This document shows, in pieces, positions 3,002 through 16,753 of a stretch of 35,447 nucleotides of DNA (the first letter of the stretch is position 1; each line of letters begins with the position of its first letter). The stretch is from Verrucomicrobiota bacterium (GTDB lineage: Bacteria > Verrucomicrobiota > Verrucomicrobiia > Verrucomicrobiales > Akkermansiaceae): the NCBI GenBank assembly GCA_004294095.1, contig RDZR01000055.1, forward strand, positions 1 to 35,447, read 5' to 3'. A program made the translations under genes and the position numbers. The notes below the pieces were generated by a model. It ran no database searches. It was not told where the DNA came from and was given only the letters and a program-made list of their open reading frames with translations.

Positions 3002-6000
3002 TCAAGGCGTGATCAACGGATTCGGCCTGAAGGCGCGGACTCGATAAAACTGGCGATCTTGGGTCGCGGGAGCATCCCACTGCGCGGCTAGAGAGTTCGC
3101 AACGATCGGGGCGCTGGAAATCACCGTCCATGAGCCCCCGATTAACGTCGTCGAGCTCTCGATGTAATACACCATGCCCGGGCGCGAATCCCAAGTAATC
3201 CGTGCAATGTTGCCTAACAATTCCGTCGTGGCCACAGAGAACCGCGAGGTGGGTGCTTTAGGATCCGTATCCGATAGGTATTCTTGGAGATTGGTGAATC
3301 CATCGCCATCTGAATCATCGGCGGCATCAGCAGCCGATATGGGATTGAGCTCGAAGGTCGTTTCCCATGCGTTAGGCATGCCATCGTTATCATCATCAGC
3401 CTCAATTTTGGCAAGCGTGAGGAAAGTGAACGAGCTGGCGCTCCAGAGCGGATTGCCGCGAATATCGAGCGCGTTGGCAAGCGTCAAAGTGGCATCAAGT
3501 CCATTGGTATGACCTGTATTCCAAGTCAGGCGATAGATCGGCTCACCTACTGTGTTGAGGTAGCTAATCGTCGATGGATTCGTCGCCGCCGTGCCTTTGC
3601 CAAGGCCGCTTAGGCTGTAATTTGCAACGTTGAAAACGCCGCCATCCGGACTCATCGCTTGGTTAAACTGAATGTCGATTTGGTTGGATGAAATTTGCGT
3701 CACGCTTCTCACATATGGATTTTTTACCGACTCGAAGCGATCGATCACCATATTGGATCCAGCCCCGTCGGTCGGGTCCAAACGGAATCTTGTGACCACC
3801 CCGCGATAGGTGCTCGCAGTGCCCATCGGCACGATGTAGTCACGCATCACGCCATCGGCAATGATCGGGAAAGTGACGGCTTTATCGCCGGTGTAGGTGG
3901 GAAATGTTTCTGTTTGGAAAAAGATTTGCGCATTATTTCCGGCCGTCTGGCTCATTCGCACATGCACCCAGCGGCGCTCGCGCGTGTTGACCCATGTCGG
4001 CGAACTTTCCGCAAATGGATCGGCCCCAGAAGAAGTGCCGATGATTGCGCCATTGAGAAAACCAAATCCAGCCCATTGATTCAGAGCGGCCCAGCCCTCG
4101 ACTGAGGCAGCAAAGTCCCAACTCGTCGGCCGTGAAGAAACGGCGGAAAATGGGGTTGAAGCGCGGTTATTTCCTCCACCCGAATAGTTCGTCCAGCGGG
4201 TCGGGTTATTGTAAACGGCGAGTGAAGGTGGGGCGAGAGTGTCCGCACCAAGGTAAATTCCATTGTTGGTGAAGGTTCCGGAATTTCCAGAATTTGCCAT
4301 CATTTCCCTATTTTGATCTGCGTTCTTCGGATTTCGCGCGTTATTCCAAAACGTATTATCGCGAATCACAAATCCTTGATTGCTGCGGTTGGTATTAATC
4401 ATCAACATGCCCCCGCCGTCGTTGTTGTGGATGACATTGTGTTGGAATACGACGTTATCGGTATTTCCTTCATAATCAAAGCCTACGCCATCATTGGCTG
4501 TTCCATTGCGCTTGTTGAAGCCAAATTCGCAATCCTCGATTGTGTAGCTTTTCATGTCTTGGATGAAGCCACCGGTGGTGCCGCTGCCATAAAATCCATT
4601 GCCGCCCATGAACGTATCGACGCGTCTGGTATGGCCGCCATTGATGTAGAAATATGCCATGGAGCCATTTTCACAGCCAGTCACCCAAGAATCCTCAAAA
4701 ATGACATTATTGAAACGCTCTTTAAACCACGGCGGATAGTAGAAATTCATCCCAAAGCCAGTGCTGACTTGATCGAATCCACAGAATTTAACCGATATAT
4801 TATTCAAAATTGCCGTGCTGGTCGATGCCCATGGGCCGCCTGATGGCGATGGGATATTTCCGCCAATCCAAATGCCAGCACCCCATGATAATTCAAACGG
4901 CGGGCCCAAGACGATGTTGCCGTTGATGTCGGCAAATGGCTCATCCATATTTTTGAAATAACAATGCGAGATGTGCACATCCGTATTGTTGAACATTTCC
5001 CCCGTGCCATTCAAATTTCCCCCAGTGTATCTCAGATAGATGCCCACCTTCGCATCGCGGCAATCCATCGAATTGATGTTCACGAACGATGGATTATTCC
5101 AAACAATCGTCGGCTCGGAAGTCACATTGATGCCGGTGATGCGCGGGCGATTTCCTTCCCCGTAGGCGGTCAGCGTGATTGGATTTCCACTCACTCCTTT
5201 GCCGATCAATTCCAATTTGCTATTCGCCCACAAGTCGCCACGCTTCAGATGGATCGTGGTCCCCGGGCTCAGCGGGTAATTTTTTAAATTAGCAAACGTC
5301 TGCCACGCCGTCGCTGGGGTGCGACCGTTGGCTGCATCATTTCCACCACTCGAGCTGATGAAAAAGGAAACATTGGCAGGCGGTCCCGCGGCATTAACCA
5401 CTGGGCTTGGGCCAAAACGCGAAGCAGGGTGCAAGCGAATGAAATCCACCTCCGTCAAATTTCCAGCCGCATTGGCAAACATCCCTTGGAACGCATCACC
5501 CGGGATGTTCATCGTCGCGCCGCCGCCTGCCGTCCATGCGTTGCCGAAGCTTTGGGTGCCGGTGAGATCGATGGAGATCGTCTGGAAATTTCCGTCAGCC
5601 ACCGTGTTGTTAAGCTGGAATCCACCCGTCGCGTATCCTGCCGGATTACTGCCATAGGCCCACTTGAAAATGTTAGGATTGGCTGTCGTCACTTGGCGCA
5701 AGCGCGTTTCGAGCCGATTGAAATGGTTAGAGCCTATCACGCGAAATGGGCGCGTCATTGCAACCGCGACGGAAGCACTCGTGGCCGCCATTCGTAACAC
5801 GCCGGTGCCAGTATTCGTCAGCGTGGTATTGGCGGCTTGGTTCCACTCGCCCAAATCGCTTGCTTCATCGAAATTCCATTTCATCGATTCTGTCACTCGG
5901 ATGTAGTCGATCTCGATGCTGTCGCCGATGTTCGTGCTGGGAATAAACAACGAAATGGAAATCGGCGCGGTGCCATCCACCCAGCACGTTGCCGCGCCCG

Positions 6001-6610
6001 CGTGATTGATTCCCAAATCAAAAACATATGTCTGGAAATTTGGCGTATTGCTCAGCGTGACCGTGCTTAAAATCGCAGAATTTCCATCATCGCCTCCGCC
6101 CGCAACACCATTGGGCCCAGCACTTTGTAAAATAAGACTCGCCGCCCGGCTTCCTGTCCCTTGAAAGCGCATGCGGACTTCCAGCGCGCGGCCGCGGCTG
6201 CGAATCAGATTATCCCCATAAATATTCACGCTCATATCGCTGCCATTCGCGACTTCCGTCTGCTTCCATGTGCCGCCCGCGACCACCGAAGTATCAGCAC
6301 CTACCGACCATCCCTGGGTATTTCCTGGAGCATTGAAATTCCAAACTTGCCCGTTCTCGACATAAAATTGATCCCCCGCAGTGGTTGAAATGTTAGGGAA
6401 ATTGAAAAGCCCCGTCGGCGTCGTCGTGCCGCTCGCCACCGAAACCCCATTTTTAAACAACTCGACCGATGCTGAAAGCGGCCCGCCCGAGCCATTCACG
6501 GACACACTCGGCCCTTCCGCAATAGGATTGAGCACCAATGTTTGTGCGCTCAAAGTCGCAGAGCACAAAACAGTAAGTGAAAAAATGAGGTGAATAAAAG
6601 GTTTTTTCAT
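3002..6610 (-). CDS. Secreted modular right-handed beta-helix protein (probable polysaccharide-active), 1202 aa
   Basis: Large secreted multidomain protein, probably binding or cleaving a polysaccharide. The ATG at 6610 starts a clean signal peptide (MKKPFIHLIFSLTVLCSATLSA); an upstream in-frame start at 6697 would place 29 residues before it and is less likely. Order of parts: a beta-sandwich near 25-85; two related jelly-roll modules opening with WNFNAPGNTQGW (90) and WNFDEASDLGEW (245); a parallel beta-helix region near 415-810 opening with FFISSSGGNDAANGRTPAT, a common start for pectate-lyase-like helices; a third copy of the jelly-roll module (WDFAASVEGW, 831); an SbsA/Ig-like domain (about 965-1068); an Asp-rich TSP3-like calcium repeat (DDDNDGMPNAWE and DDSDGDGFTNLQEY, 1072-1112); and a C-terminal beta domain common in Verrucomicrobiota. 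It leads the rhamnosidase operon. Catalytic residues could not be assigned. Confidence 0.75.
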   Translation of the reverse strand: MKKPFIHLIFSLTVLCSATLSAQTLVLNPIAEGPSVSVNGSGGPLSASVELFKNGVSVASGTTTPTGLFNFPNISTTAGDQFYVENGQVWNFNAPGNTQGWSVGADTSVVAGGTWKQTEVANGSDMSVNIYGDNLIRSRGRALEVRMRFQGTGSRAASLILQSAGPNGVAGGGDDGNSAILSTVTLSNTPNFQTYVFDLGINHAGAATCWVDGTAPISISLFIPSTNIGDSIEIDYIRVTESMKWNFDEASDLGEWNQAANTTLTNTGTGVLRMAATSASVAVAMTRPFRVIGSNHFNRLETRLRQVTTANPNIFKWAYGSNPAGYATGGFQLNNTVADGNFQTISIDLTGTQSFGNAWTAGGGATMNIPGDAFQGMFANAAGNLTEVDFIRLHPASRFGPSPVVNAAGPPANVSFFISSSGGNDAANGRTPATAWQTFANLKNYPLSPGTTIHLKRGDLWANSKLELIGKGVSGNPITLTAYGEGNRPRITGINVTSEPTIVWNNPSFVNINSMDCRDAKVGIYLRYTGGNLNGTGEMFNNTDVHISHCYFKNMDEPFADINGNIVLGPPFELSWGAGIWIGGNIPSPSGGPWASTSTAILNNISVKFCGFDQVSTGFGMNFYYPPWFKERFNNVIFEDSWVTGCENGSMAYFYINGGHTRRVDTFMGGNGFYGSGTTGGFIQDMKSYTIEDCEFGFNKRNGTANDGVGFDYEGNTDNVVFQHNVIHNNDGGGMLMINTNRSNQGFVIRDNTFWNNARNPKNADQNREMMANSGNSGTFTNNGIYLGADTLAPPSLAVYNNPTRWTNYSGGGNNRASTPFSAVSSRPTSWDFAASVEGWAALNQWAGFGFLNGAIIGTSSGADPFAESSPTWVNTRERRWVHVRMSQTAGNNAQIFFQTETFPTYTGDKAVTFPIIADGVMRDYIVPMGTASTYRGVVTRFRLDPTDGAGSNMVIDRFESVKNPYVRSVTQISSNQIDIQFNQAMSPDGGVFNVANYSLSGLGKGTAATNPSTISYLNTVGEPIYRLTWNTGHTNGLDATLTLANALDIRGNPLWSASSFTFLTLAKIEADDDNDGMPNAWETTFELNPISAADAADDSDGDGFTNLQEYLSDTDPKAPTSRFSVATTELLGNIARITWDSRPGMVYYIESSTTLIGGSWTVISSAPIVANSLAAQWDAPATQDRQFYRVRAFRPNPLITP

Positions 6611-6705
6611 GATCTGAACTTGATAGGAAAAATGATGATTCAGGTTCAAAAAATTCGGCTGGGGCACGACTTTTCTGACAAACCTCGAAATATCCACATT
6701 TTTAG

Positions 6706-6730
6706 AATACCTTCAATACCTCCAATAGGA
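6706..6730. repeat. Short tandem repeat, possible regulator-binding direct repeats
   Basis: On the plus strand the units AATACCTTC, AATACCTCC and AATAGG follow each other without gaps about 100 bp upstream of the beta-helix gene start. On the coding strand this reads as repeated TATTGRAGG. Tandem direct repeats in a promoter can be binding sites of AraC-type activators, but no such regulator is in the window, so the role is speculative. Confidence 0.35.
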
Positions 6731-7023
6731 TGCAGCCAGCTTCTTTTGCTTTCCAATACCGCATCCACGCGGAAGACCGTCCATGCTTCACAATATGAGA
6801 AAAGCGTGGTGCTCAGATGCTTTCAGGACACGCTGTGACCCAAAAAACTCTCGTGCGATGAGATTGACTTCCGCATGACCACGAGTGAGCTACACGGAAG
6901 ATAGTGACAATCCTTATGGAAAAATGGCCGTGGTTGCCTCGCGCGACTCTGCTAATGAGTCTTGTTACGCTTCGTCCGTGTGGCTGCGAACCTCACTAAA
7001 AACATTATCAAGCAACTGAGTTA

Positions 7024-7039
7024 GAGGTAAATGAACCTC
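7024..7039. repeat. GAGGTAAATGAACCTC inverted repeat, copy 1
   Basis: A 5-bp arm inverted repeat with a 6-nt centre. It is nearly identical (15 of 16 positions) to the element at 16770-16785. It lies in non-coding DNA, as does the second copy. Function unknown; it could be a protein-binding site or a small hairpin. Confidence 0.4.
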
Positions 7040-7113
7040 GGCACCGCAACACGTCAGTTGATGACGTTCGCCGCTCATTAAATTGGCAAGCTGTCAAGAT
7101 CTATTCAATAGAA

Positions 7114-7166
7114 AACCCAGAACGAAATGATGTCAGATATATCTGCCATCAATACACGTCTGGGTT
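7114..7166. repeat. Nested inverted repeat / palindrome, possible terminator or operator
   Basis: Outer arms AACCCAGA (7114-7121) and TCTGGGTT (7159-7166) enclose a perfect 12-bp palindrome CAGATATATCTG (7134-7145), itself flanked by GATG and CATC. On the minus strand the outer hairpin ends in TCTGGGTTTTC just downstream of the PEP-CTERM gene, so it may be a weak terminator of that gene. The inner palindrome looks more like a dimeric regulator site serving the downstream glycan operon. Confidence 0.4.
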
Positions 7167-7201
7167 GACTCCGCTTTTTTTAGACGCTCGCGCATCAACA
7201 A

Positions 7202-7918
7202 TCAACCATTACGGCGGCGTGATCTTTTGAACGCCGAGAGCACTGCAAATGCTGCTATCAAGCTCGCAGAGCTCGGCTCAGGGATGACAGGCAGCTCAAA
7301 TACTAATACATCATCCAAAGCAAGATCGGTAAGCGGCTCTGCGGTTGGGGTGGTGTTGGTGAACCTAAGAGTGCTGGAGCTGGAAGTAGCCGTAAAGGTA
7401 TAAAAATTACGGATCACCGAAGCACCTGTGAAAAAGCCATCACCCGTGACGGAAAAAGTGCCGGAGCTTCCTAACGTCAACAAGGAAGTCGTATCGAATA
7501 CAAGACTTGTGCCGCTGGCCGTTCCTGGAGGAACAACCGACAAAGGCCGAGGTTGATTGTTCCCGATTGCTCTGCCATTTGTAAAGTTAACGATGTATTC
7601 GCGGCCGGGGATCGTCGAGAAAGCTTGTTGGATAGTTCCACCAGTGGCAGAGCCGTTGATGCCCATGGCATAATAATTACTGTCGTAAGGGGCTGTTAGG
7701 CGCCATGGGTTAGCACCGGAGGAAATGACGGCACTTTGTGAAGTTGGGCCACCAATCGTCCAGAATGCTGGACCCGCGCCGGGTGCTGAGTATACCTGAC
7801 TGCTGGCCGGCAGAACTGCGGGATTCTCAAAACCTCCATTAGTAATAAGGTTTACTTGAGCATTCGATGCCGAACTTGCAGCGAGGGTAAAAAATAATAT
7901 GCGTAAGGTGTGTTTCAT
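7202..7918 (-). CDS. PEP-CTERM sorting domain protein, 238 aa
   Basis: Exported surface protein of unknown role. It has a signal peptide (MKHTLRILFFTLAASSASNA, 1-20), a beta-rich body beginning NLITNGGFENP (a common opening of DUF642-like or choice-of-anchor domains) and ending TDLALDDVLVFELP, and a textbook C-terminal PEP-CTERM signal: VIPEPSSASL near 212, a hydrophobic stretch, and the basic tail KRSRRR. Such signals are processed by an exosortase, which is not in this window, and in the family are linked with exopolysaccharide-producing bacteria. It stands alone, about 590 bp from the glycan operon, and any link with that operon is only positional. Confidence 0.85.
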   Translation of the reverse strand: MKHTLRILFFTLAASSASNAQVNLITNGGFENPAVLPASSQVYSAPGAGPAFWTIGGPTSQSAVISSGANPWRLTAPYDSNYYAMGINGSATGGTIQQAFSTIPGREYIVNFTNGRAIGNNQPRPLSVVPPGTASGTSLVFDTTSLLTLGSSGTFSVTGDGFFTGASVIRNFYTFTATSSSSTLRFTNTTPTAEPLTDLALDDVLVFELPVIPEPSSASLIAAFAVLSAFKRSRRRNG

Positions 7919-7921
7919 AAG

Positions 7922-7933
7922 AACAGGCCTGTT
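7922..7933. promoter_or_regulatory. Perfect 12-bp palindrome in the leader of the PEP-CTERM gene
   Basis: AACAGGCCTGTT lies 3 bp upstream of the start codon, where a ribosome-binding site would be. A bound protein or an RNA hairpin here could block translation, but the length is short enough that chance cannot be ruled out. Confidence 0.3.
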
Positions 7934-7966
7934 ATCGTCACCTCAAGCTGGATTGGCAAGATAAAT

Positions 7967-7992
7967 ATTAAAAAATTTATATAATTTTTAAT
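7967..7992. repeat. AT-rich inverted repeat upstream of the PEP-CTERM gene
   Basis: Arms ATTAAAAA and TTTTTAAT with an AT-only centre. On the minus strand a possible promoter overlaps it: TTGGAT, a 16-nt spacer and TATATA, about 50-75 bp upstream of the start codon. This is the most AT-rich stretch in the neighbourhood. Confidence 0.35.
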
Positions 7993-8108
7993 AAGGCGAA
8001 TCCAAAGAACACAAAACTTCTACATAACTCGTTTATCAGAAATAATATAGCAAAAATCAATGGACAGAACACCGCCTCAAAGCCTCGCCAAATAGTATGA
8101 CAATCATC

Positions 8109-9332
8109 TCAGAAATACGTCCGGAATGCGATGCTGTAGGTGAGCGCGTCTGCTTCGCCGGCGGGTGTTTCGAGAGAAGTGTATTCGATGCCGCCCATGA
8201 TTTTTGCTTGGTGGCCGCAGAGGTGGTAATTGAGGCCGAGGTAAAGTGTGTGGAGTTCATCACCGCGTCCGCCATTGACATTTACTCCCGGTGAGTGGGC
8301 GGAGCGGAAGTAGCGGCTGTTGGTGCGCATGCCTTCGCTTTGGGAGGCTCCTGCGTAGTGATATTGACAAACTGCTTGCAAGCGCTTTTCCACCACCCAA
8401 TACCACGGCATCAGTGTGAGACTGTGGAACGATCCACCGCGATTTGCGGCAGAGCTGTTATTTTCCCCAACGACGAGGGTGGAAAGCAGCCCAAACTGGT
8501 CTTTTTCATAAACGGCGCTCAACGCTGTGGCCCAATCGTAGGCGAGAAAGTCATCTTCCCCGGACGGATCATTCATAACGCCATCAAAAATCAAGCGCCA
8601 ATCATCATTCAACGTGTGGCTCACCGAAAGATAATAGGCAAGACCGTCATTCCAACCGCCGATGAATTCCGAGTCATCCTCTCCGCTGAAAATCCCGAGC
8701 GTCATCGACGTGTCGCCGATTTGCGCGTCAAGCGTCATACCCGTTGGACGGTTTTGTGCGCCTGCGAGTTTATTGGTCATGGCAGAGCGCTCGAGCGTGT
8801 AAATTTCCTTGGATGACATGTGCATTTCCTCGGTCATGTTAAATTTGAAGCGCCCGTAATTGAGCGATAACTTCTCGAATGGCTCGGCTGCGAAGAGTTT
8901 TTTCAAATCCAAAGAAATGATCGCCTCATCAAAGGTATCGTAGCCCCAGTCCAAATCGCCTTCATTGCGGCGCTCGTCATTGACTAGGTTTACCGACGAT
9001 TTGATGCTGAAATAGGTGAGGAATTTGGACTTAAGCTCCAAGCGCGCGCGCCGGTATTCATCGTAAGAATCATTAAAATCACGGCCATTGACATCGGTGC
9101 CATCGATGTATGCAGCTTGATAATGGAAACGCCCGCCGATGGTCAGCGACTCCAGCCAATGATTACCTTTATCTTTGTAAAGCTCGCCCGGATCATTCTG
9201 CAACCACTCGCACCACGTTGCAGTGGCGGGCGGCTCGTCGGCGGCGGGAGCCATAGGAGTGCCAGCGCCCGCTATCGTCAAAGAAGCGAACCAGAGAAGC
9301 ATGACACGACGAAGGGATAAAATAGATTGCAT
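8109..9332 (-). CDS. Phosphate-selective-type outer-membrane porin (OprO/OprP family), 407 aa
   Basis: Outer-membrane beta-barrel likely admitting phosphate or polyphosphate. The ATG at 9332 begins a signal peptide (MQSILSLRRVMLLWFASLTIAGAG); a TTG eight codons upstream (9356) is a less likely start. The mature protein shows the family's pattern: LTIGGRFHYQAAYIDG, then YRRARLELKSKFLTYFSIKSSVNLV, LSLNYGRFKFNMTEE, and a series of alternating strands with acidic turns, ending in a terminal Phe (AFRTYF), as expected for BAM-dependent insertion. It is divergent from pstS, with PHO-box-like repeats between them, which supports a role in phosphate uptake rather than general permeation. Substrate specificity is inferred from family and context. 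Confidence 0.82.
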   Translation of the reverse strand: MQSILSLRRVMLLWFASLTIAGAGTPMAPAADEPPATATWCEWLQNDPGELYKDKGNHWLESLTIGGRFHYQAAYIDGTDVNGRDFNDSYDEYRRARLELKSKFLTYFSIKSSVNLVNDERRNEGDLDWGYDTFDEAIISLDLKKLFAAEPFEKLSLNYGRFKFNMTEEMHMSSKEIYTLERSAMTNKLAGAQNRPTGMTLDAQIGDTSMTLGIFSGEDDSEFIGGWNDGLAYYLSVSHTLNDDWRLIFDGVMNDPSGEDDFLAYDWATALSAVYEKDQFGLLSTLVVGENNSSAANRGGSFHSLTLMPWYWVVEKRLQAVCQYHYAGASQSEGMRTNSRYFRSAHSPGVNVNGGRGDELHTLYLGLNYHLCGHQAKIMGGIEYTSLETPAGEADALTYSIAFRTYF

Positions 9333-9347
9333 GGGCGAAAAGATGTA

Positions 9348-9395
9348 ATGTGACAATGATGTAACGTCAAAAAATTTATGTGACGATCATGTCAC
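9348..9395. promoter_or_regulatory. Two PHO-box-like pairs of direct repeats between porin and pstS
   Basis: Four 7-bp units are visible on the plus strand: ATGTGAC (9348-9354), ATGTAAC (9359-9365), ATGTGAC (9378-9384) and ATGTCAC (9389-9395). Within each pair the units are 11 bp apart (7 bp plus a 4-bp spacer), the architecture of the enterobacterial PHO box bound by PhoB dimers; the two pairs are 30 bp apart. The sequence is not the E. coli consensus, so recognition by a PhoB-type regulator is inferred from spacing and from the flanking genes. Confidence 0.6.
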
Positions 9396-9483
9396 ACTGC
9401 AACCTTTGAAGTTTTTTTATCCTGCACAGAATAGAAGTTTGCAGGGCACGACGCTGCCTCTTAAAAAGAAACACAATCCATTT

Positions 9484-10443
9484 ATGAAAATCAAGCATCT
9501 CAGCATATTGAGCCTCTTGTGGGCGGTCATGCCCGCAGCGGCAGAAGTCTCTCACATTGATGAAAATCATGCAAAGTATGAAGCCGTCAGCGGCGTGACT
9601 GGCAATTTAAACTCGATTGGCTCAGATACGTTGAACAACCTGATGACCTTATGGGCTGAAGGTTTCAAAACCGCCTATCCAAACGTCAATGTGCAGATCG
9701 AGGGCAAAGGATCTTCCACCGCGCCACCGGCATTGATCGAAGGCACAGCGCAAATTGGACCGATGAGCCGCCCGATGAAGGCCGAGGAGATTGATGCTTT
9801 TGAAAAACGTTACGGCTACAAGCCGACTGAAGTGCAGGTGGCGATCGATGCCCTCGCGATTTTTGCGCATAAGGATAATCCGCTCGAAGGGCTGAGCATG
9901 AAGCAGGTGGATTCGATTTTCTCGCAAACTCGCAAGAAGGGCGGAGAAGATATTCAAGACTGGGCACAACTTGGCCTTAGCGATTGGAAAGGCCGCGCTA
10001 TTTCGCTCTTTGGAAGAAATTCGGCATCTGGCACTTATGGTTTTTTCCAAGAGCACGCCCTTGCCAAAGGTGACTTCAAAAGCAGCGTGAAAGAGCAGCC
10101 CGGCTCGTCCGGCGTGGTCCAAGGCATTGGCGGCGATCTTTATTCACTCGGCTATTCCGGAATTGGTTACAAAACTTCCGGCGTGCGCGCCGTGCCACTC
10201 AGCGGTGATGACGGGAAATTTTTTGAACCCAATTACGATAATGCCCTCTCGGGCGATTATCCACTGGCCCGTTTCCTCGTCGTTTACGTCAACAAAAAAC
10301 CGGGCCAAGCGCTTGATACCTTGACGTTGGAGTTCCTCAAATTCGTGCTTTCCAAGGAAGGCCAAACCATCACTGAAAAGGAAGGTTACTTTCCGATGCC
10401 AGCGGAACTTGCCGCCGAGGTGGCTACTAGCTTAAGCAAATAA
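9484..10443 (+). CDS. pstS: Phosphate ABC transporter substrate-binding protein PstS, 319 aa
   Basis: Periplasmic phosphate-binding protein that delivers phosphate to the Pst permease. The start at ATG 9484 gives a signal peptide (MKIKHLSILSLLWAVMPAAA); a TTG in frame at 9406 would add 26 residues without a function. Family motifs are clear: SIGSDTLNNL (44-53), GKGSSTAPPAL (74-84) and NSASGTYGFF (179-188), the loops that hold phosphate, then GIGGDLYSLGYSGIGY near 220. It is the first plus-strand gene after the divergent promoter region with PHO-box-like repeats and is followed by a terminator-like hairpin, which could allow much more PstS than permease to be made. Confidence 0.93.
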   Translation: MKIKHLSILSLLWAVMPAAAEVSHIDENHAKYEAVSGVTGNLNSIGSDTLNNLMTLWAEGFKTAYPNVNVQIEGKGSSTAPPALIEGTAQIGPMSRPMKAEEIDAFEKRYGYKPTEVQVAIDALAIFAHKDNPLEGLSMKQVDSIFSQTRKKGGEDIQDWAQLGLSDWKGRAISLFGRNSASGTYGFFQEHALAKGDFKSSVKEQPGSSGVVQGIGGDLYSLGYSGIGYKTSGVRAVPLSGDDGKFFEPNYDNALSGDYPLARFLVVYVNKKPGQALDTLTLEFLKFVLSKEGQTITEKEGYFPMPAELAAEVATSLSK

Positions 10444-10540: not shown

Positions 10541-12811
10541 ATGTTAGATAAGCAGACCACGCCCGATCCGAATCGATTCAATGTATCGCGCGCGACATTG
10601 TGGCTCGATCGTGCGATGGGCTGGATCATTCGCGCGGGCGGCATCGCGGTGATCCTCGCGGTGTTTGGTATTTTCTACTTCATCGGGAAAGAAGTGGTGC
10701 CGCTCTTTCACGATGCAAAAATTAACAACGTCGCCAGTTTTTCGAACGGGATCGAATCGCGCGTGCTCGGTGTCGATGAATGGGGCGAGATGCCATTTTT
10801 CTACGATGGCGGTAAATCATTGATCTTCATCAATGTGGCCGACGGCAAACGCGAAGTGTTAGATGTTTCAGGTCTAACAGATTTGACGGTTCGTTCCTTT
10901 GCATACGATCCGGTGCACCGGCGGATTGCCTTGGGTCTCGAAGACGGCCGCGTGGGCGCGATGGTGATCAACTACGAGCGAAAATTCGCGCCAGACGGCA
11001 GCTCGTCGATTGCGCCAAGCGCTGAGTTAGAACCTTGGCAAGAGCTAAGCCATGGCAGTGGCCCAGTCGTGGCAGTGAGTCATGGCGATTCTGGAGATGG
11101 CCGAGTGATCGTTGCCCAACGGCAAGCCGCAGATGGCTCCTCGCAGGTCTCGATTCTCAAGCTGGCGATGAAGCGTGGGCTGATTGGAAAAGGGAAATTA
11201 TCGCTGGTGGCGGAAGTGGATGTGACTTCCCAATTGAGTGCTCCATCCTCACTGCTGCGGGCTTCATCGAATGCATCGATGGTCTTGATCGCCACCACCG
11301 ATGGCAAGGTGCACTACTTTCTAGCAGATGGCGATGGGGTGAGCAAACGACAAGTCTTCCAACCCCACGGCGAGCTGGCACTGCGGCAATTGGATTTTTT
11401 GTTTGGAGGTGTCTCGTTGGTGGCGACGTCCGAGAACGGCGATCAAGCACAGTGGAGTTTATTCCGGCCCGAGAACCAAGGTGAGCGCTTGTTTGGCGAG
11501 ACGAAAAAGCTTCCAGCACTTGAAAAGGGCGAGATTTTTTTCGCAGCAAGCCAACGCAATCGCACGTTTCTAACAGGATCTAACAAAAAACTCGCAATCA
11601 TCCACAGCACCTCCGGAGTAGCGCGCTGGGCGGGCACTTTGGACATCGCGCCCACCACCGCAGTGATCGATGCCAAGGGCGAGCATTTTTTCGTGGCAGA
11701 TGCGGCCGGTGCGGTGCGGAAATTTGCGATTCACGATCCGCATCCGGAGGCTGGCTGGCGCGCATTTTTTGGCAAAGTTTGGTATGAGGGTGGCTCGAAA
11801 CCCGTCTATCAATGGCAATCGACTGGCGGCACGGATGATTTTGAGCCCAAGCTCTCGCTGATTCCGCTGATCTACGGCTCATTGAAAGGCACCGCCTACG
11901 CGTTGCTTTTTTCGGTGCCAGTCGCCCTTTTGGCAGCCATTTTCTCAGCCGCTTTTTTACCGTTAGAAATCAAACGGGTGGTCAAGCCAGTGATGGAAAT
12001 TATGTCTTCGCTGCCGTCGGTGGTGTTAGGCTTTCTCGCCGGATTATGGCTGGCACCGATTTGGGAAATGCGGGTGCCATCGGTGCTGATGATCACGATC
12101 ATGCTGCCAATCTCTGCATTGGCGATGGGCTACATTGGCTGCCGCTTGCCGCCGGCCGTGCGCAATCGTTTTGAGAATGGGCGCGAGTGGCTTGTCGTGC
12201 TGCCGGTGATGGCACTTTTCGCCTGGCTCGGATGGCACCTCGGCCCGTTGCTCGAGCGCTGGCTGTTTATTTATCGCGATCCAACCACACAGCAGGCCAT
12301 CGCAGATTTCCGTTTGTGGTGGCCACAATTTACCGGCACGCCATTTGAGCAAAGAAATTCGTTAGTGCTCGGATTCATGATGGGCTTCGCGGTGATTCCC
12401 GTGATTTTCACCATCGCGGAAGATGCCCTCTCAAATGTGCCGAAGTCTCTAACAGCCGCCGCCGCCGCACTCGGCGCGAATCGCTGGCAAGTGGTGCGGA
12501 CGGTGATGCTGCCAGTCGCGTCTTCAGGAATTTTCTCCGCGTTAATGATTGGTTTTGGCCGCGCGGTGGGTGAGACGATGATCATGGTGATGGCCACCGG
12601 AAATACGCCGGTGATGGATTGGAATATTTTCAACGGCATGCGCACACTCTCGGCCAACATCGCCGTCGAGCTGCCAGAAGCACCGGTGGGGTCCACTCAC
12701 TATCGCACTCTGTTCTTGGGTGCAGTGGTGCTATTTGCGATGACGTTTTTCATGAATACTCTAGCAGAAATTCTCCGGCAGCGGCTTCGCGAGCGCAATA
12801 AAATCGTCTAA
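10541..12811 (+). CDS. pstC: Phosphate ABC transporter permease PstC with large periplasmic insertion, 756 aa
   Basis: Inner-membrane permease subunit of the Pst importer. One N-terminal membrane helix (about 31-52) is followed by roughly 390 residues of soluble sequence rich in beta strands, with recurring patterns such as ALGLEDGRVGAMV, IATTDGKVHYFLA and FVADAAGAVRKFAI that look like a beta-propeller (inference). The MetI-like permease domain starts at about 445 (YGSLKGTAYALLF), with the EAA loop EDALSNVPKSL followed by AAALGANRWQVVRTVMLP (about 627-657), and ends in a basic tail. Standard PstC proteins are around 300-340 residues, so this one is more than twice as long; long forms are known in some bacteria. 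It is 3 bp from pstA. No Shine-Dalgarno is evident. Confidence 0.9.
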   Translation: MLDKQTTPDPNRFNVSRATLWLDRAMGWIIRAGGIAVILAVFGIFYFIGKEVVPLFHDAKINNVASFSNGIESRVLGVDEWGEMPFFYDGGKSLIFINVADGKREVLDVSGLTDLTVRSFAYDPVHRRIALGLEDGRVGAMVINYERKFAPDGSSSIAPSAELEPWQELSHGSGPVVAVSHGDSGDGRVIVAQRQAADGSSQVSILKLAMKRGLIGKGKLSLVAEVDVTSQLSAPSSLLRASSNASMVLIATTDGKVHYFLADGDGVSKRQVFQPHGELALRQLDFLFGGVSLVATSENGDQAQWSLFRPENQGERLFGETKKLPALEKGEIFFAASQRNRTFLTGSNKKLAIIHSTSGVARWAGTLDIAPTTAVIDAKGEHFFVADAAGAVRKFAIHDPHPEAGWRAFFGKVWYEGGSKPVYQWQSTGGTDDFEPKLSLIPLIYGSLKGTAYALLFSVPVALLAAIFSAAFLPLEIKRVVKPVMEIMSSLPSVVLGFLAGLWLAPIWEMRVPSVLMITIMLPISALAMGYIGCRLPPAVRNRFENGREWLVVLPVMALFAWLGWHLGPLLERWLFIYRDPTTQQAIADFRLWWPQFTGTPFEQRNSLVLGFMMGFAVIPVIFTIAEDALSNVPKSLTAAAAALGANRWQVVRTVMLPVASSGIFSALMIGFGRAVGETMIMVMATGNTPVMDWNIFNGMRTLSANIAVELPEAPVGSTHYRTLFLGAVVLFAMTFFMNTLAEILRQRLRERNKIV

Positions 12812-12814
12812 CGT

Positions 12815-14449
12815 ATGTCTGAGAAATCAACCATCAGCCAGCCATTTGCCACGACCGGGCGCTCGCGCAAGGGCGAGCCGTGGGTGTGGCTGACCGCCGC
12901 TGGGCTTACGTTTGGCGTGCTGATGGCGCTTGGCCTATTTATCCTCATTTGCGTCAAAGGCGTGGCATCGTTCTGGCCGCAACGGATCGAATTGTTAGAG
13001 ATAAAAGGCGATACGACCCGCCAAATTGCGGCGGGCATTCCAAGCCAAGAGCGCTTGCGAAAAGATGCTCAGGGCGTGGAGCATGAAGAACTCCAATTTT
13101 TCCATGGCAACCGCGATTTGCAGGCCGAGGCGTTTCGCTACTATGATCGTAGTCAAATTGTGCGCAGCACGCAGCCGCAGGAAATGTGGTGGGTTGAGCG
13201 CAGTGAAAATGGCACTGCATTTATTTTTCCCAAGCAGGTCGAATCTGATGGCAAGACGATTCAAGCCGGTGATCCCGCATTCGAGCCGACGTTGGATCGT
13301 GTTTTGAAAAAAGGGCGTGAAGTGCGTAGCCGCCTGCGGCAAATCGAGCGCAAGGAAATCGGCGCGATCAGCCGTGAAATGGAAGCACTCAATCGCGCTG
13401 AGAGATCGCGCGAGGTCGCACCCGGACTGGCTGCTGAGCGCCGTGCTACCTTGCAGCAAGAGTTCGAGCGCTTGCAAAAGGAGACCGCGGAAATGCGTGC
13501 GGAGCTGGCCAAGTCTCGCCTGTTAGGCAGCTCGGCGGATGGCCGCGAGATGGTTTTCCCAGTGGAAACGTTATTGAATTATTTCCCATCTAACCGGGCC
13601 GGATTCTTCGAGAGAGTGGCAGAAATGGTTAGGCGCATGAGCAACTTTCTCACCGAAGATCCACGTCAAGCCAATACCGAGGGCGGTGTCTTTCCAGCGA
13701 TTTTCGGCACGGTGATCATGACCTTGGTGATGAGCTTGATGGTCACTCCATTTGGTGTGATTGCGGCGATCTATTTGCGAGAGTATGCCACGCAAGGAAT
13801 GCTGGTTCAATTGGTGCGAATTTGCGTGAACAATCTAGCAGGTGTGCCTTCGATTGTGTTCGGGGTTTTTGGGTTGGCCTTCTTTGTTTACTTCGTCGGC
13901 GGTGGATTGGATCAGTGGTTATTTGCCGATAAATTGCCAACGCCGACGTATGGCACACCCGGCATTTTGTGGGCCTCGCTCACACTCGCGTTGCTGACTT
14001 TGCCGGTCATCATCGTCGCCACTGAGGAAGCCCTCTCCGCAGTGCCCCGCGGCGTGCGCGAAGCGGCTCTCGCTTGTGGTGCGTCCAAGTGGCAAATGAT
14101 CCAACGCGTGGTTTTGCCAGCATCGATGCCCGGCATTCTCACCGGTGTGATTTTAGCCATGGCGCGCGGCGCGGGCGAGGTCGCGCCGCTGATGTTAGTC
14201 GGCGTGGTCAAACTTGCGCCCTCATTGCCAGTGGATGGCATTGCGCCATTTATTCATCCGGAGCGCAAGTTCATGCACTTGGGATTCCACATTTATGATC
14301 TCGGCTTTCAATCGCCGGATGCAGAGGCCGCCAAACCAGCGGTTTTTGCGACTGCCATGCTGCTCATCATCATCGTCGTGGCTCTGAATCTGACGGCAAT
14401 TTTAATCAGAAATAGGCTTAAAAAACGCTTCGCGGTGAGTAGCTTCTAA
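12815..14449 (+). CDS. pstA: Phosphate ABC transporter permease PstA with periplasmic coiled-coil insertion, 544 aa
   Basis: Second membrane subunit of the Pst importer. After one membrane helix (about 24-48) comes an insertion of roughly 235 residues, predicted periplasmic. It includes a charged, heptad-rich stretch (about 165-240: [17 protein letters not shown], then [18 protein letters not shown]) that should form a coiled coil. The permease domain runs from about 288, with the EAA loop [19 protein letters not shown] followed by [13 protein letters not shown] (about 405-436). Typical PstA proteins are around 280-300 residues. Since PstC also has a large periplasmic insertion, the two may contact each other or the porin. 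It is 3 bp after pstC and 5 bp before pstB. Confidence 0.9.
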
Positions 14450-14454
14450 CAGTA

Positions 14455-15243
14455 ATGGAAGATGATCTAACAAAACCAATCGCACTGATGAATGATTTCA
14501 TCAAAGTGGATCATTTTAACTTTTTCTATGGTGAGAAGCAGGCGATTCACGAAATTTCCATGGACATTCCTGAGCGGCAGATTACCGCACTGATCGGCCC
14601 ATCTGGATGCGGAAAATCCACGCTTCTTCGGAATCTGAATCGCATGAATGATCTCATCAATGGCGTGCATCACAGCGGTGATATCCGGATTGCCGGCACC
14701 AGTTTATACGATCCCAAAGTGGAGGTCATTTCCTTGCGCAAGCGGGTGGGCATGGTCTTTCAAAAATACAATCCGTTTGCGAAATCGATTTACGAAAACG
14801 TCATTTTCAGCCTGCGCGTAGCAGGGCGCTCGCGGCGCAAGGAGTTAGACGAGACAGTCGAGCGAGCGCTGCAATCCGCTGCCTTGTGGGATGAAGTCAA
14901 GGACCGCCTGCACGAGAGTGCCTTTGGTCTATCAGGTGGCCAGCAGCAGCGATTATGCATTGCGCGTGCGATCGCCAATCAGCCGGAAATTTTGTTGATG
15001 GATGAGCCATGCGCGGCGCTCGATCCACTTGCGACGCTGAAAATTGAGGAACTCATCCTCACTTTGAAAAAGCAATTCACCATCGTCATCGTCACTCACA
15101 ATATGATGCAAGCGACGCGCTGCTCAGACCGCACCGCATTTTTATACATGGGCCGTTTGATCGAATATGGCGAGACGATGCAAATCTTCGAGCGGCCCAA
15201 AGAAACACAAACCGAGGCCTACATTTCTGGGCGTTTCAGCTAG
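14455..15243 (+). CDS. pstB: Phosphate ABC transporter ATP-binding protein PstB, first copy, 262 aa
   Basis: Cytoplasmic ATPase driving phosphate import. All ABC motifs are intact: Walker [10 protein letters not shown] (48-56), Q-loop VFQKYNPF (101-108), signature LSGGQQQR (159-166), Walker B ILLMDEP (179-185) with the D-loop ALD (188-190), and the H-loop TH. The PstB-typical NRMNDLI follows Walker A. An alternative start is Met12 (14488). The stop codon of this gene is one base away from the start of a second PstB gene, so the operon encodes two ATPase paralogues; they could form a heterodimer or be used under different conditions. Confidence 0.93.
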
Positions 15244-15244
15244 T

Positions 15245-16018
15245 ATGGAAAAACCGCTGTTAGATCCCGCAGTAAAGGTGCAAGATTTGGATTTTTACTA
15301 TTCCAAATCGCTAGCCCTCAAGCGCATCACGATGGACATTTTTCCCAATGAAGTGACGGCCTTCATCGGTCCATCCGGTTGCGGGAAATCGACGTTGCTG
15401 CGCTGCTTCAATCGCATGAACGATTTAATTCCCGGTGCTCGCATCGGCCACGGCGGCATCTGGATCCGCGGGGTGGAAATTCATGGGGATGATGTGGATG
15501 TCGTCGAGCTGCGGCGCGGCATGGGCATGGTTTTTCAAAAATCCAATCCATTCCCACGCACGATTTACGAAAATGTGGCTTATGGGCCGCGCATTTTGGG
15601 CGAGAAACGCCGAGATGTGTTAGATGCTACCGTTGAAAAATCCCTGCGTGGCGCGGCGCTTTGGGATGAAGTCAAAGACCGCTTGAACGAAAGCGCGTTC
15701 GGCCTATCCGGCGGCCAGCAGCAACGCCTATGCATTGCGCGGGCCACTGCCGTGAATCCGGAAATCATTTTGATGGACGAGCCATGCTCGGCACTCGATC
15801 CGATTGCGACATCCCGCGTTGAGGAATTAATCCTTGAGATGAAGCGAGAATATACGATCATTATCGTGACGCATAACATGCAGCAGGCGACTCGCGTCTC
15901 AGACCGCACTGCGTTTTTCTATTTAGGTGCTTTGGTTGAATATGATCTCACCTCAAAAATTTTCTCTACTCCATCGCTCAAGCAGACGGAAAATTATATC
16001 TCTGGCCGCTTTGGATAA
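15245..16018 (+). CDS. pstB: Phosphate ABC transporter ATP-binding protein PstB, second copy, 257 aa
   Basis: Paralogue of the preceding PstB. The ATG at 15245 follows the first pstB's stop by one base; a longer in-frame reading from 15167 would lie inside the first pstB and is rejected. Walker [10 protein letters not shown] (42-50), Q-loop [10 protein letters not shown] (97-106), signature LSGGQQQR (154-161), Walker B IILMDEP (174-180) and the H-loop are all intact, so it should be active. The two copies have clearly diverged and are not a recent exact duplication. Tandem PstB ATPases also occur in, for example, Bacillus subtilis (pstBA, pstBB). Confidence 0.93.
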
Positions 16019-16051: not shown

Positions 16052-16753
16052 ATGCAAGGCGGCCATATTTTACGCGATTTTGATCAAGCCATCACTCACT
16101 TGCGCTGTGAAGTGCTCTCGATGGCGGCCAAGGCGCGTCATAACTTAGAAGGCGGCATCCAAGCGCTTCTCACACGCAATGAAGAATTGGCCAATGCGGT
16201 GATTGCAGAGGACGATGAAGTCGATGACTACGAACGCAGCATCGACCAACTTGGAATGGACATTTTAGTGCGCTTCCACCCGATGGCGACGGACCTGCGA
16301 TTGGTCATTTCCTCGATGAAAATCGCGATGAATTTGGAGCGCATTTCCGATCATGCCACCAACATCGCGAAGCGCGCGAAAAAAATCAGCCGCGGGCCAG
16401 TGATGGCGGATGCCGTATTGATCGAACCCATTTACGCTCTAGCAGATCAGTTGCTGCGAGATGCGATTTCCGCATACAGCGATTCCAACGCCGAATTAGG
16501 CGGCTCGCTTCACGGCCGCGATAAAGAATTGGACCGCTTGCATCACGCGGTGACAACGACCTACAGCCAACGCATGGAGCAGGGCAACGGCCGCAGCGAA
16601 AGTTATTTGCACTTGGTATTGACGGTGCGCTCGCTCGAACGCGTCGGCGATCTCGCATCGAATATTGGCGAAGATGCCGTCTTTGTGCAAATGGCCAAAG
16701 ATTTACGTCACCTGTCATCGGGCCAACGCAACGAGATTTCATCTGAAAAATGA
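16052..16753 (+). CDS. phoU: Phosphate uptake regulator PhoU, 233 aa
   Basis: Cytoplasmic helical protein that in other bacteria restrains the Pst transporter and signals phosphate status to a PhoR-type kinase. Two PhoU repeats are visible, each a three-helix bundle: the first with DEVDDYERSID (about 54-64) and NLERISDHATNIA (about 94-106), the second with DKELDRLHHAV (about 153-163) and SLERVGDLASNIGEDAVF (about 193-210). These acidic ExxxD and DxxTN/DxxSN patterns bind metal clusters in known PhoU structures. It closes the pst cluster, as in many genomes. No phoR or phoB gene lies in the window. The TCTAACA heptamer occurs 12 bp upstream of the start. Confidence 0.92.
   Translation: MQGGHILRDFDQAITHLRCEVLSMAAKARHNLEGGIQALLTRNEELANAVIAEDDEVDDYERSIDQLGMDILVRFHPMATDLRLVISSMKIAMNLERISDHATNIAKRAKKISRGPVMADAVLIEPIYALADQLLRDAISAYSDSNAELGGSLHGRDKELDRLHHAVTTTYSQRMEQGNGRSESYLHLVLTVRSLERVGDLASNIGEDAVFVQMAKDLRHLSSGQRNEISSEK

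Follow-up and report, generated by a model that had tools for sequence, protein, structure and literature searches.

What might a phosphate importer gain from carrying a large additional domain on both of its permease subunits? The question is raised by the pst operon on a 35,447-nucleotide stretch from a Verrucomicrobiota bacterium of the Akkermansiaceae (assembly GCA_004294095.1, contig RDZR01000055.1), the whole of which we call the window. The Pst system of E. coli is the textbook phosphate importer and phosphate sensor. The window operon reads pstS, pstC, pstA, two copies of pstB and phoU, a complete gene set for a Pst importer, and by all sequence tests run the system is a Pst phosphate importer. 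An earlier note on this DNA, made by a model from the letters alone, had described about 390 extra residues, beta-rich and propeller-like, after the first helix of PstC and about 235 with a coiled coil after the first helix of PstA, and had proposed that they jointly form a periplasmic superstructure, perhaps one that docks PstS or links to the adjacent outer-membrane porin. We found that its coordinates and reading frames for pstC and pstA hold, as do both descriptions. What emerges is almost certainly an old and widespread propeller-type Pst subfamily in which a propeller and a transmembrane (TM) hairpin on PstC and an arm on PstA are inherited as a unit. By analogy with the P2 domain of MalF, which serves the binding protein MalE, propeller and arm may form a periplasmic collar that helps PstS to dock, a reading to which we give a probability of roughly 45%.

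The extra region of PstC spans residues 57 to 445 or so (389 aa) and directly follows hydrophobic segment 1 (30-48, by hydropathy). We modelled it with AlphaFold2 (AF2) within a read-through chain of PstC 27-756 and PstA 1-468, using 78 aligned rows; the chain reached a predicted local distance difference test score (pLDDT) of 82.6 and a predicted template modelling score (pTM) of 0.74. Between model residues 34 and 372, 28 strands (7 x 4; block pLDDT 84-97) give the seven four-stranded blades of a WD40 propeller, in a prediction rather than a structure. Foldseek ranked WD40-type propeller proteins at the top (eIF3i, E 1.3e-10), and VIA-align placed the insert on AIP1 with a Z of 24.3 over 288 residues at 3.2 Å. 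AIP1, Ciao1, Sec12, eIF3i and others share the fold at VIA Z 22-24 over about 290-310 residues, but identity to the insert is only 7-14% among the VIA-align rows and, unlike those WD40 proteins, the PstC propeller is located inside a bacterial membrane permease. Several PDB titles state the WD40 nature of these matches, and we presume it for the remainder. The WD40 models of Pfam gave nothing significant on the window PstC (best E 0.19); on eight of its relatives they found the WDR3 propeller in two (best 3.5e-5) and the Prp19 WD40 domain in one (3.4e-6). As modelled, the PstC insert is a known fold, the WD40-type propeller.

In PstA the extra region covers residues 55 to 290 or so (236 aa), again directly after hydrophobic segment 1 (29-47, by hydropathy). 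The arm, modelled alone (PstA 45-296, 77 rows; pLDDT 93.7, pTM 0.85), is predicted to have nine strands followed by two long helices that pair as a hairpin, then three further strands and a helix of amphipathic appearance. The hairpin, two antiparallel helices at 156-197 and 203-231, corresponds to the coiled coil of the earlier note. With the arm as query, Foldseek found no PDB match at E ≤ 0.001 (best 0.037) and VIA matched mainly the hairpin, which is generic (best Z 10.7 over 67 residues); we make no claim of a new fold. We also considered the coiled coil as an essential element and rejected this. Its columns are mostly missing in 42 of 349 distinct propeller pairs; three of these (L171, L350 and L363) are cut by the end of their stretch, and the other 39 are genuine, one (L383) from the Brocadia-phylum sample and 38 from the Nitrospira-phylum sample or from named Nitrospira. 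Since these 39 pairs do without it, the hairpin is dispensable, and their arms keep the beta part. The Nitrospira-group arms without a coiled coil are those of L077, L086, L093, L174-L200 and L259-L268.

The two inserts are not uniformly constrained. Mean information per column is 1.36-1.76 bits in the propeller versus 3.06 bits in PstC 401-445 and 3.87 bits in PstA 281-300, which leads into the membrane, and this contrast marks the stretches that enter the membrane as the constrained parts. A third feature, absent from the earlier note, lies within the membrane domain itself: aligned with a short PstC from the same order, the propeller form is longer by about 80 residues in the interval from TM3 to TM4, and these include hydrophobic segments at 515-533 and 550-568. 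The columns of this extra hairpin are occupied in all 363 aligned propeller PstC. Two proteins (L269 and L270) have about 120 additional residues between the extra hairpin and TM4, and many matches with open frames of 850-1010 aa, which fit the PstC profile only to about position 600, may resemble them.

How strictly is the propeller tied to the arm? To find out, we ran one profile for each, covering PstC 57-400 and PstA 55-285, against the open reading frames of 393 loci. Among the 380 loci with both membrane-domain frames, 357 carry both extra domains, 23 neither and none only one; as the profiles were built from the same loci, most of them found through a PstC query, this count tests well that a propeller comes with an arm and only weakly that an arm comes with a propeller. 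The 357 double-domain loci represent 341 distinct PstC membrane-domain sequences, some places having been fetched twice. The joint presence of the long domains claimed in the earlier note is thus borne out. The remaining 13 loci lack one membrane-domain frame, and five of these are discordant; truncation at the end of the stretch accounts for discordance in L171, L257 and L350 (PstA) and in L332 (PstC). The fifth discordant locus, L047, is a real oddity: at 5998-8052 it holds an orphan PstC of 684 aa whose propeller is shortened and around which no other pst genes lie in 14 kb. When plasmids were searched with the Pseudomonas propeller and, separately, with the Pseudomonas arm, the same 2 of 72,556 records came back both times. 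On the viral contig L399, an apparent arm without a propeller was dismissed: at 3579-5594 a phage tail open frame runs into an arm-bearing pstA-like start at the end of the stretch, which may reflect an assembly chimaera or an insertion.

None of the 23 loci with neither domain matched the propeller or arm profile, and the outgroups E. coli, Azospirillum, Halorussus, Bacteroides and Paraburkholderia did not match them either. In most of the 23, the open frame of PstC measures 640-670 aa and that of PstA 375-416 aa; the others fall into classes with PstC of 536-601 and PstA of 358-707 aa, PstC of 386-414 and PstA of 451-505 aa, or short pairs. The first combination occurs in the window's own genus (L015-L023 and L025) as a second class of long PstC, whose insert looks helical by eye, and in G016 one contig carries both this class and a pstC of the propeller type. 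Long PstC with a near-standard PstA, which the earlier note had named as a refuting case, therefore does occur, yet by profile search the inserts of this class are unrelated to the propeller.

Length and spacing were compared among the matches listed as pairs, with partnerless matches (for example G033 and G114) and some short solitary ones set aside. In the first sample all 23 listed pairs with a PstC open frame of at least 700 aa show a gap of 743 nt or more from the TM domain of PstC to that of PstA, and in the second sample this holds for six of seven; in the seventh (G160) the PstC match is uninterrupted, which means that its open frame is simply too long. A wide gap is likewise seen where no PstC of propeller length is present (for example in G052, G121, G168, G199 and G164), and length alone was rejected as a marker of the propeller. 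In Halomonas (G147, contig C26) two pst permease pairs with open frames of 811/582 and 416/567 aa lie about 6 kb apart.

The propeller-type PstC form a single lineage. A tree built on 230 columns from 67 PstC membrane domains places the 41 propeller leaves in a clade (support 0.959) with none of the 26 others inside, and for this reason the pairing is best read as one ancient acquisition kept together rather than as 357 independent cases. Retention of propeller and arm side by side, with no loss seen, is suggestive of a joint function.

Both extra regions are conserved in hundreds of species, which is not chance. A genome scan yielded at least 590 relatives, of which the best 80, all named, are referred to here as the named loci. 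By record titles these belong to Verrucomicrobiota, Gammaproteobacteria, Nitrospirota, Methylomirabilota, Gemmatimonadota, Calditrichota, KSB1, Planctomycetota, Acidobacteriota, Myxococcota and others. In profile surveys, in which some counted matches are partial, a propeller PstC was present in 85 of 274 gammaproteobacterial genomes (the class of a Stutzerimonas genome; E ≤ 1e-100) and in 116 of 369 of an overlapping sample (E ≤ 1e-200). At E ≤ 1e-90 it was found in 67 of 387 genomes of the window's phylum and, for the phyla of a Nitrospira, an Acidobacteria, a Methylomirabilis and a Brocadia genome, in 40 of 198, 25 of 199, 41 of 95 and 56 of 189, respectively. In the genus to which the window belongs, the propeller form was seen in 5 of 18 relatives.

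Pseudomonas aeruginosa (L031) has the same gene order as the window, pstS-pstC-pstA-pstB-phoU, and its PstC and PstA, annotated at 677 and 558 aa, carry both extra domains; the annotated start of PstC excludes TM1. Propeller and arm profiles match there at E 1.8e-91 and 7.3e-82, and in Aeromonas caviae (L032) at 1e-74 and 3.2e-71. Identity of Pseudomonas and Aeromonas to the window is about 36% for PstC and 44% for PstA, and both have one pstB versus two in the window. The window PstC scores barely above the curated NCBIfam cut-off for TIGR02138 (199.5 versus 196.45 bits), and that of P. aeruginosa (L031, 1768-3801) falls under it at 191.8 bits; its record bears no more specific name than 'ABC transporter permease subunit'. 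E. coli PstC and PstA (PDB 9k3s, 9k3x and 9k3y; L394) share the permease core of this phosphate ATP-binding cassette (ABC) importer but measure 319 and 296 aa and have no propeller, arm or extra TM hairpin. Searches of Pfam and of PDB sequences recognised only the membrane domains of the window PstC and PstA, with E. coli PstC and PstA as the best PDB matches. We found no dedicated Pfam model for propeller or arm and no paper on these domains in a literature search outside whose reach most subscription journals lie. As far as found, the combination of propeller and arm on Pst permeases is undescribed; the importer and the fold of the PstC insert are already known.

The closest parallels come from other permeases. 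One study describes MalF P2 (residues 91-271) as a periplasmic insert of an ABC permease, a segment of which contacts MalE (PMC3150292), and for this comparison we drew also on a second (PMC8134467). P2 is like the window inserts in being a periplasmic insertion in the permease of an ABC importer, and unlike them in its size (about 180 residues) and place; we claim no relatedness. Its fold differs from theirs as well. For alphaproteobacterial phosphate transporters with BPD_transp_1, one paper reports that DUF3708 and DUF3333 are associated with each other and with these permeases (PMC3597751). Their Pfam models gave no match in the window PstC or PstA at E up to 1, none in eight PstC relatives and none among the 25 of 66 families listed for relatives of the PstA arm. 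One of the two domains presumably sits on PstC and the other on PstA, extending both permeases in parallel, and we regard these permeases as a comparable but different case.

How might a collar work? Both inserts lie between hydrophobic segments 1 and 2 and are confidently folded by AF2, and permease topology places them on the periplasmic side, as with MalF P2. As each starts immediately after TM1 and the chain returns to the membrane at TM2, the inserts should cover the mouth of the permease. There the collar would receive PstS, keep it in register and couple its state of loading to PstB and the membrane domains. The propeller may act as a bulky wall, the beta domain of PstA as its constant partner and the coiled coil as an optional lever. 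A variable propeller body with strongly conserved stretches leading to the membrane suits a scaffold rather than an enzyme. The docking collar is further favoured by the fact that none of the 380 loci separates propeller from arm, by the extra TM hairpin that accompanies them, and by a PstS relative in 64 of the 80 named loci. Several observations weigh against it. No PstS relative was found in 11 of the 80 loci despite more than 1.5 kb upstream; PstS of the TIGR02136 type also serves importers without a propeller (Halorussus and Bacteroides), so that PstS is not specialised at the level of this family; PstS of E. coli docks without propeller or arm; and a single origin makes the co-occurrence weaker than its count.

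That single origin also speaks for a possible but rather unlikely alternative, in which the inserts are no working unit but were co-inherited from one ancestral operon, each stabilising its own subunit or the heterodimer. Apart from the monophyly of the propeller PstC, the loss of the coiled coil in 39 pairs that keep the propeller fits this idea, and so does the diffuse coevolution of the inserts. In a mean-field direct coupling analysis of 359 PstC-PstA pairs including the window (effective number 284), the 22 strongest couplings are all within one protein, and the 119 between-protein couplings among the top 400 are scattered. The best of them scores 0.94, little above within-clade shuffles (0.72 and 0.74) and compared with 0.79 for a random shuffle; each kind of shuffle was run once, and the excess may be fine-scale phylogeny. 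The TM domains of the two proteins, paired as a positive control, behaved similarly (1.78 versus 1.33; one shuffle, 345 pairs). Unlinked ornaments, however, would not be expected to leave 380 loci across many phyla with no intact pair bearing a single domain. Alternatively, propeller and arm might report the loading of PstS or bind a periplasmic partner and thereby tune Pho signalling through PhoU/PhoR. WD40-type propellers are platforms for protein interaction, and phoU is a neighbour of the transporter genes both in the window and in most of the named loci; we identified no partner gene exclusive to propeller systems, though, and E. coli Pst and PhoU signal without either domain. We hold this explanation to be improbable. 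A little less probable again is a combined version in which propeller, arm and TM hairpin act as one module for gating and sensing in the periplasm, in place of the simple docking of the E. coli type: PstS would first dock on the WD40 platform, which would sense loading and license both transport and Pho signalling.

It is very unlikely that arm or propeller simply anchors the importer by touching peptidoglycan or the membrane surface. The coiled coil does differ between lineages, as an anchor might, and all of the best 80 named loci come from groups generally held to be two-membraned (by record titles, single-membrane groups having been searched unsystematically); against this, the Pfam scan found no peptidoglycan-binding family in the window inserts. 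The link to the adjacent porin offered in the earlier note fared worst and is now hardly credible. In the window a Porin_O_P gene does lie divergently beside pstS, with repeats there that may serve both genes as a control region. Relatives of this porin, however, turned up in only 5 of the 80 named loci, in one case weakly (E 4.8e-4), in a survey with near-full 6 kb flanks in 46 of the 80 and with the window porin as query, which other porins could escape; the porin accordingly falls outside the conserved unit. One propeller and a hairpin of 30-40 residues per arm would, moreover, be short relative to the periplasm.

The features of the window operon are collected below. The genes pstC and pstA lie in one reading frame, separated by a stop and one codon, and by eye the likelier start of pstS is an in-frame ATG at 9484. 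The first-ATG frames of the tandem pstB copies (14455-16018) overlap by 77 nt, and among the named loci two strong pstB relatives occur only in L033, L034, L035 and L036. Between the divergent porin and pstS genes, at 9339-9395, lie two direct repeats of 27 nt, 74% alike and spaced by 30 nt; our guess is a regulatory site used by both genes, for instance a Pho box. A pattern derived from them occurs six times in the window at up to 3 mismatches, and four of these occurrences lie at the repeats themselves.

Features of the pst locus in window coordinates
Feature	Position	Strand	Evidence or remark
Porin_O_P family porin	8109..9356	-	Pfam PF07396, E 7.7e-08; divergent from pstS
pstS, phosphate-binding protein, TIGR02136 type	9406..10443	+	250.5 bits, cut-off 206.6
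pstC, propeller-type permease, 756 aa	10541..12811	+	TIGR02138, 199.5 bits, cut-off 196.45
Predicted periplasmic WD40-type beta-propeller, PstC residues 57-400	10709..11740	+	AF2 model and PDB fold matches
Conserved stretch from propeller to TM2, PstC residues 401-445	11741..11875	+	Motifs HPE, WYE, WQS, DFEPKLS
Extra transmembrane hairpin, PstC residues 512-575	12074..12265	+	Hydropathy and alignment with short PstC
pstA, arm-type permease, 544 aa	12815..14449	+	TIGR00974, 249.8 bits, cut-off 193.45
Predicted periplasmic arm (beta domain and hairpin), PstA residues 55-290	12977..13684	+	AF2 of PstA 45-296
Predicted antiparallel coiled-coil hairpin, PstA residues 156-231	13280..13507	+	AF2; absent in the Nitrospira group
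pstB, copy 1	14455..15243	+	TIGR00972, 393.4 bits
pstB, copy 2	15167..16018	+	TIGR00972, 379.7 bits
phoU	16052..16753	+	TIGR02135, 155.1 bits

Propeller-type Pst is thus common, and Pseudomonas is among its carriers; the E. coli model lacks it. If the inserts were indeed a gating module, a large share of diderm bacteria, Pseudomonas included, would operate a WD40 platform within an ABC importer. Given propeller-type PstC in 85 of the 274 gammaproteobacterial genomes sampled and in 67 of the 387 from the window's phylum, the picture of PstS docking and Pho signalling drawn from E. coli may not transfer to Pseudomonas and its relatives.

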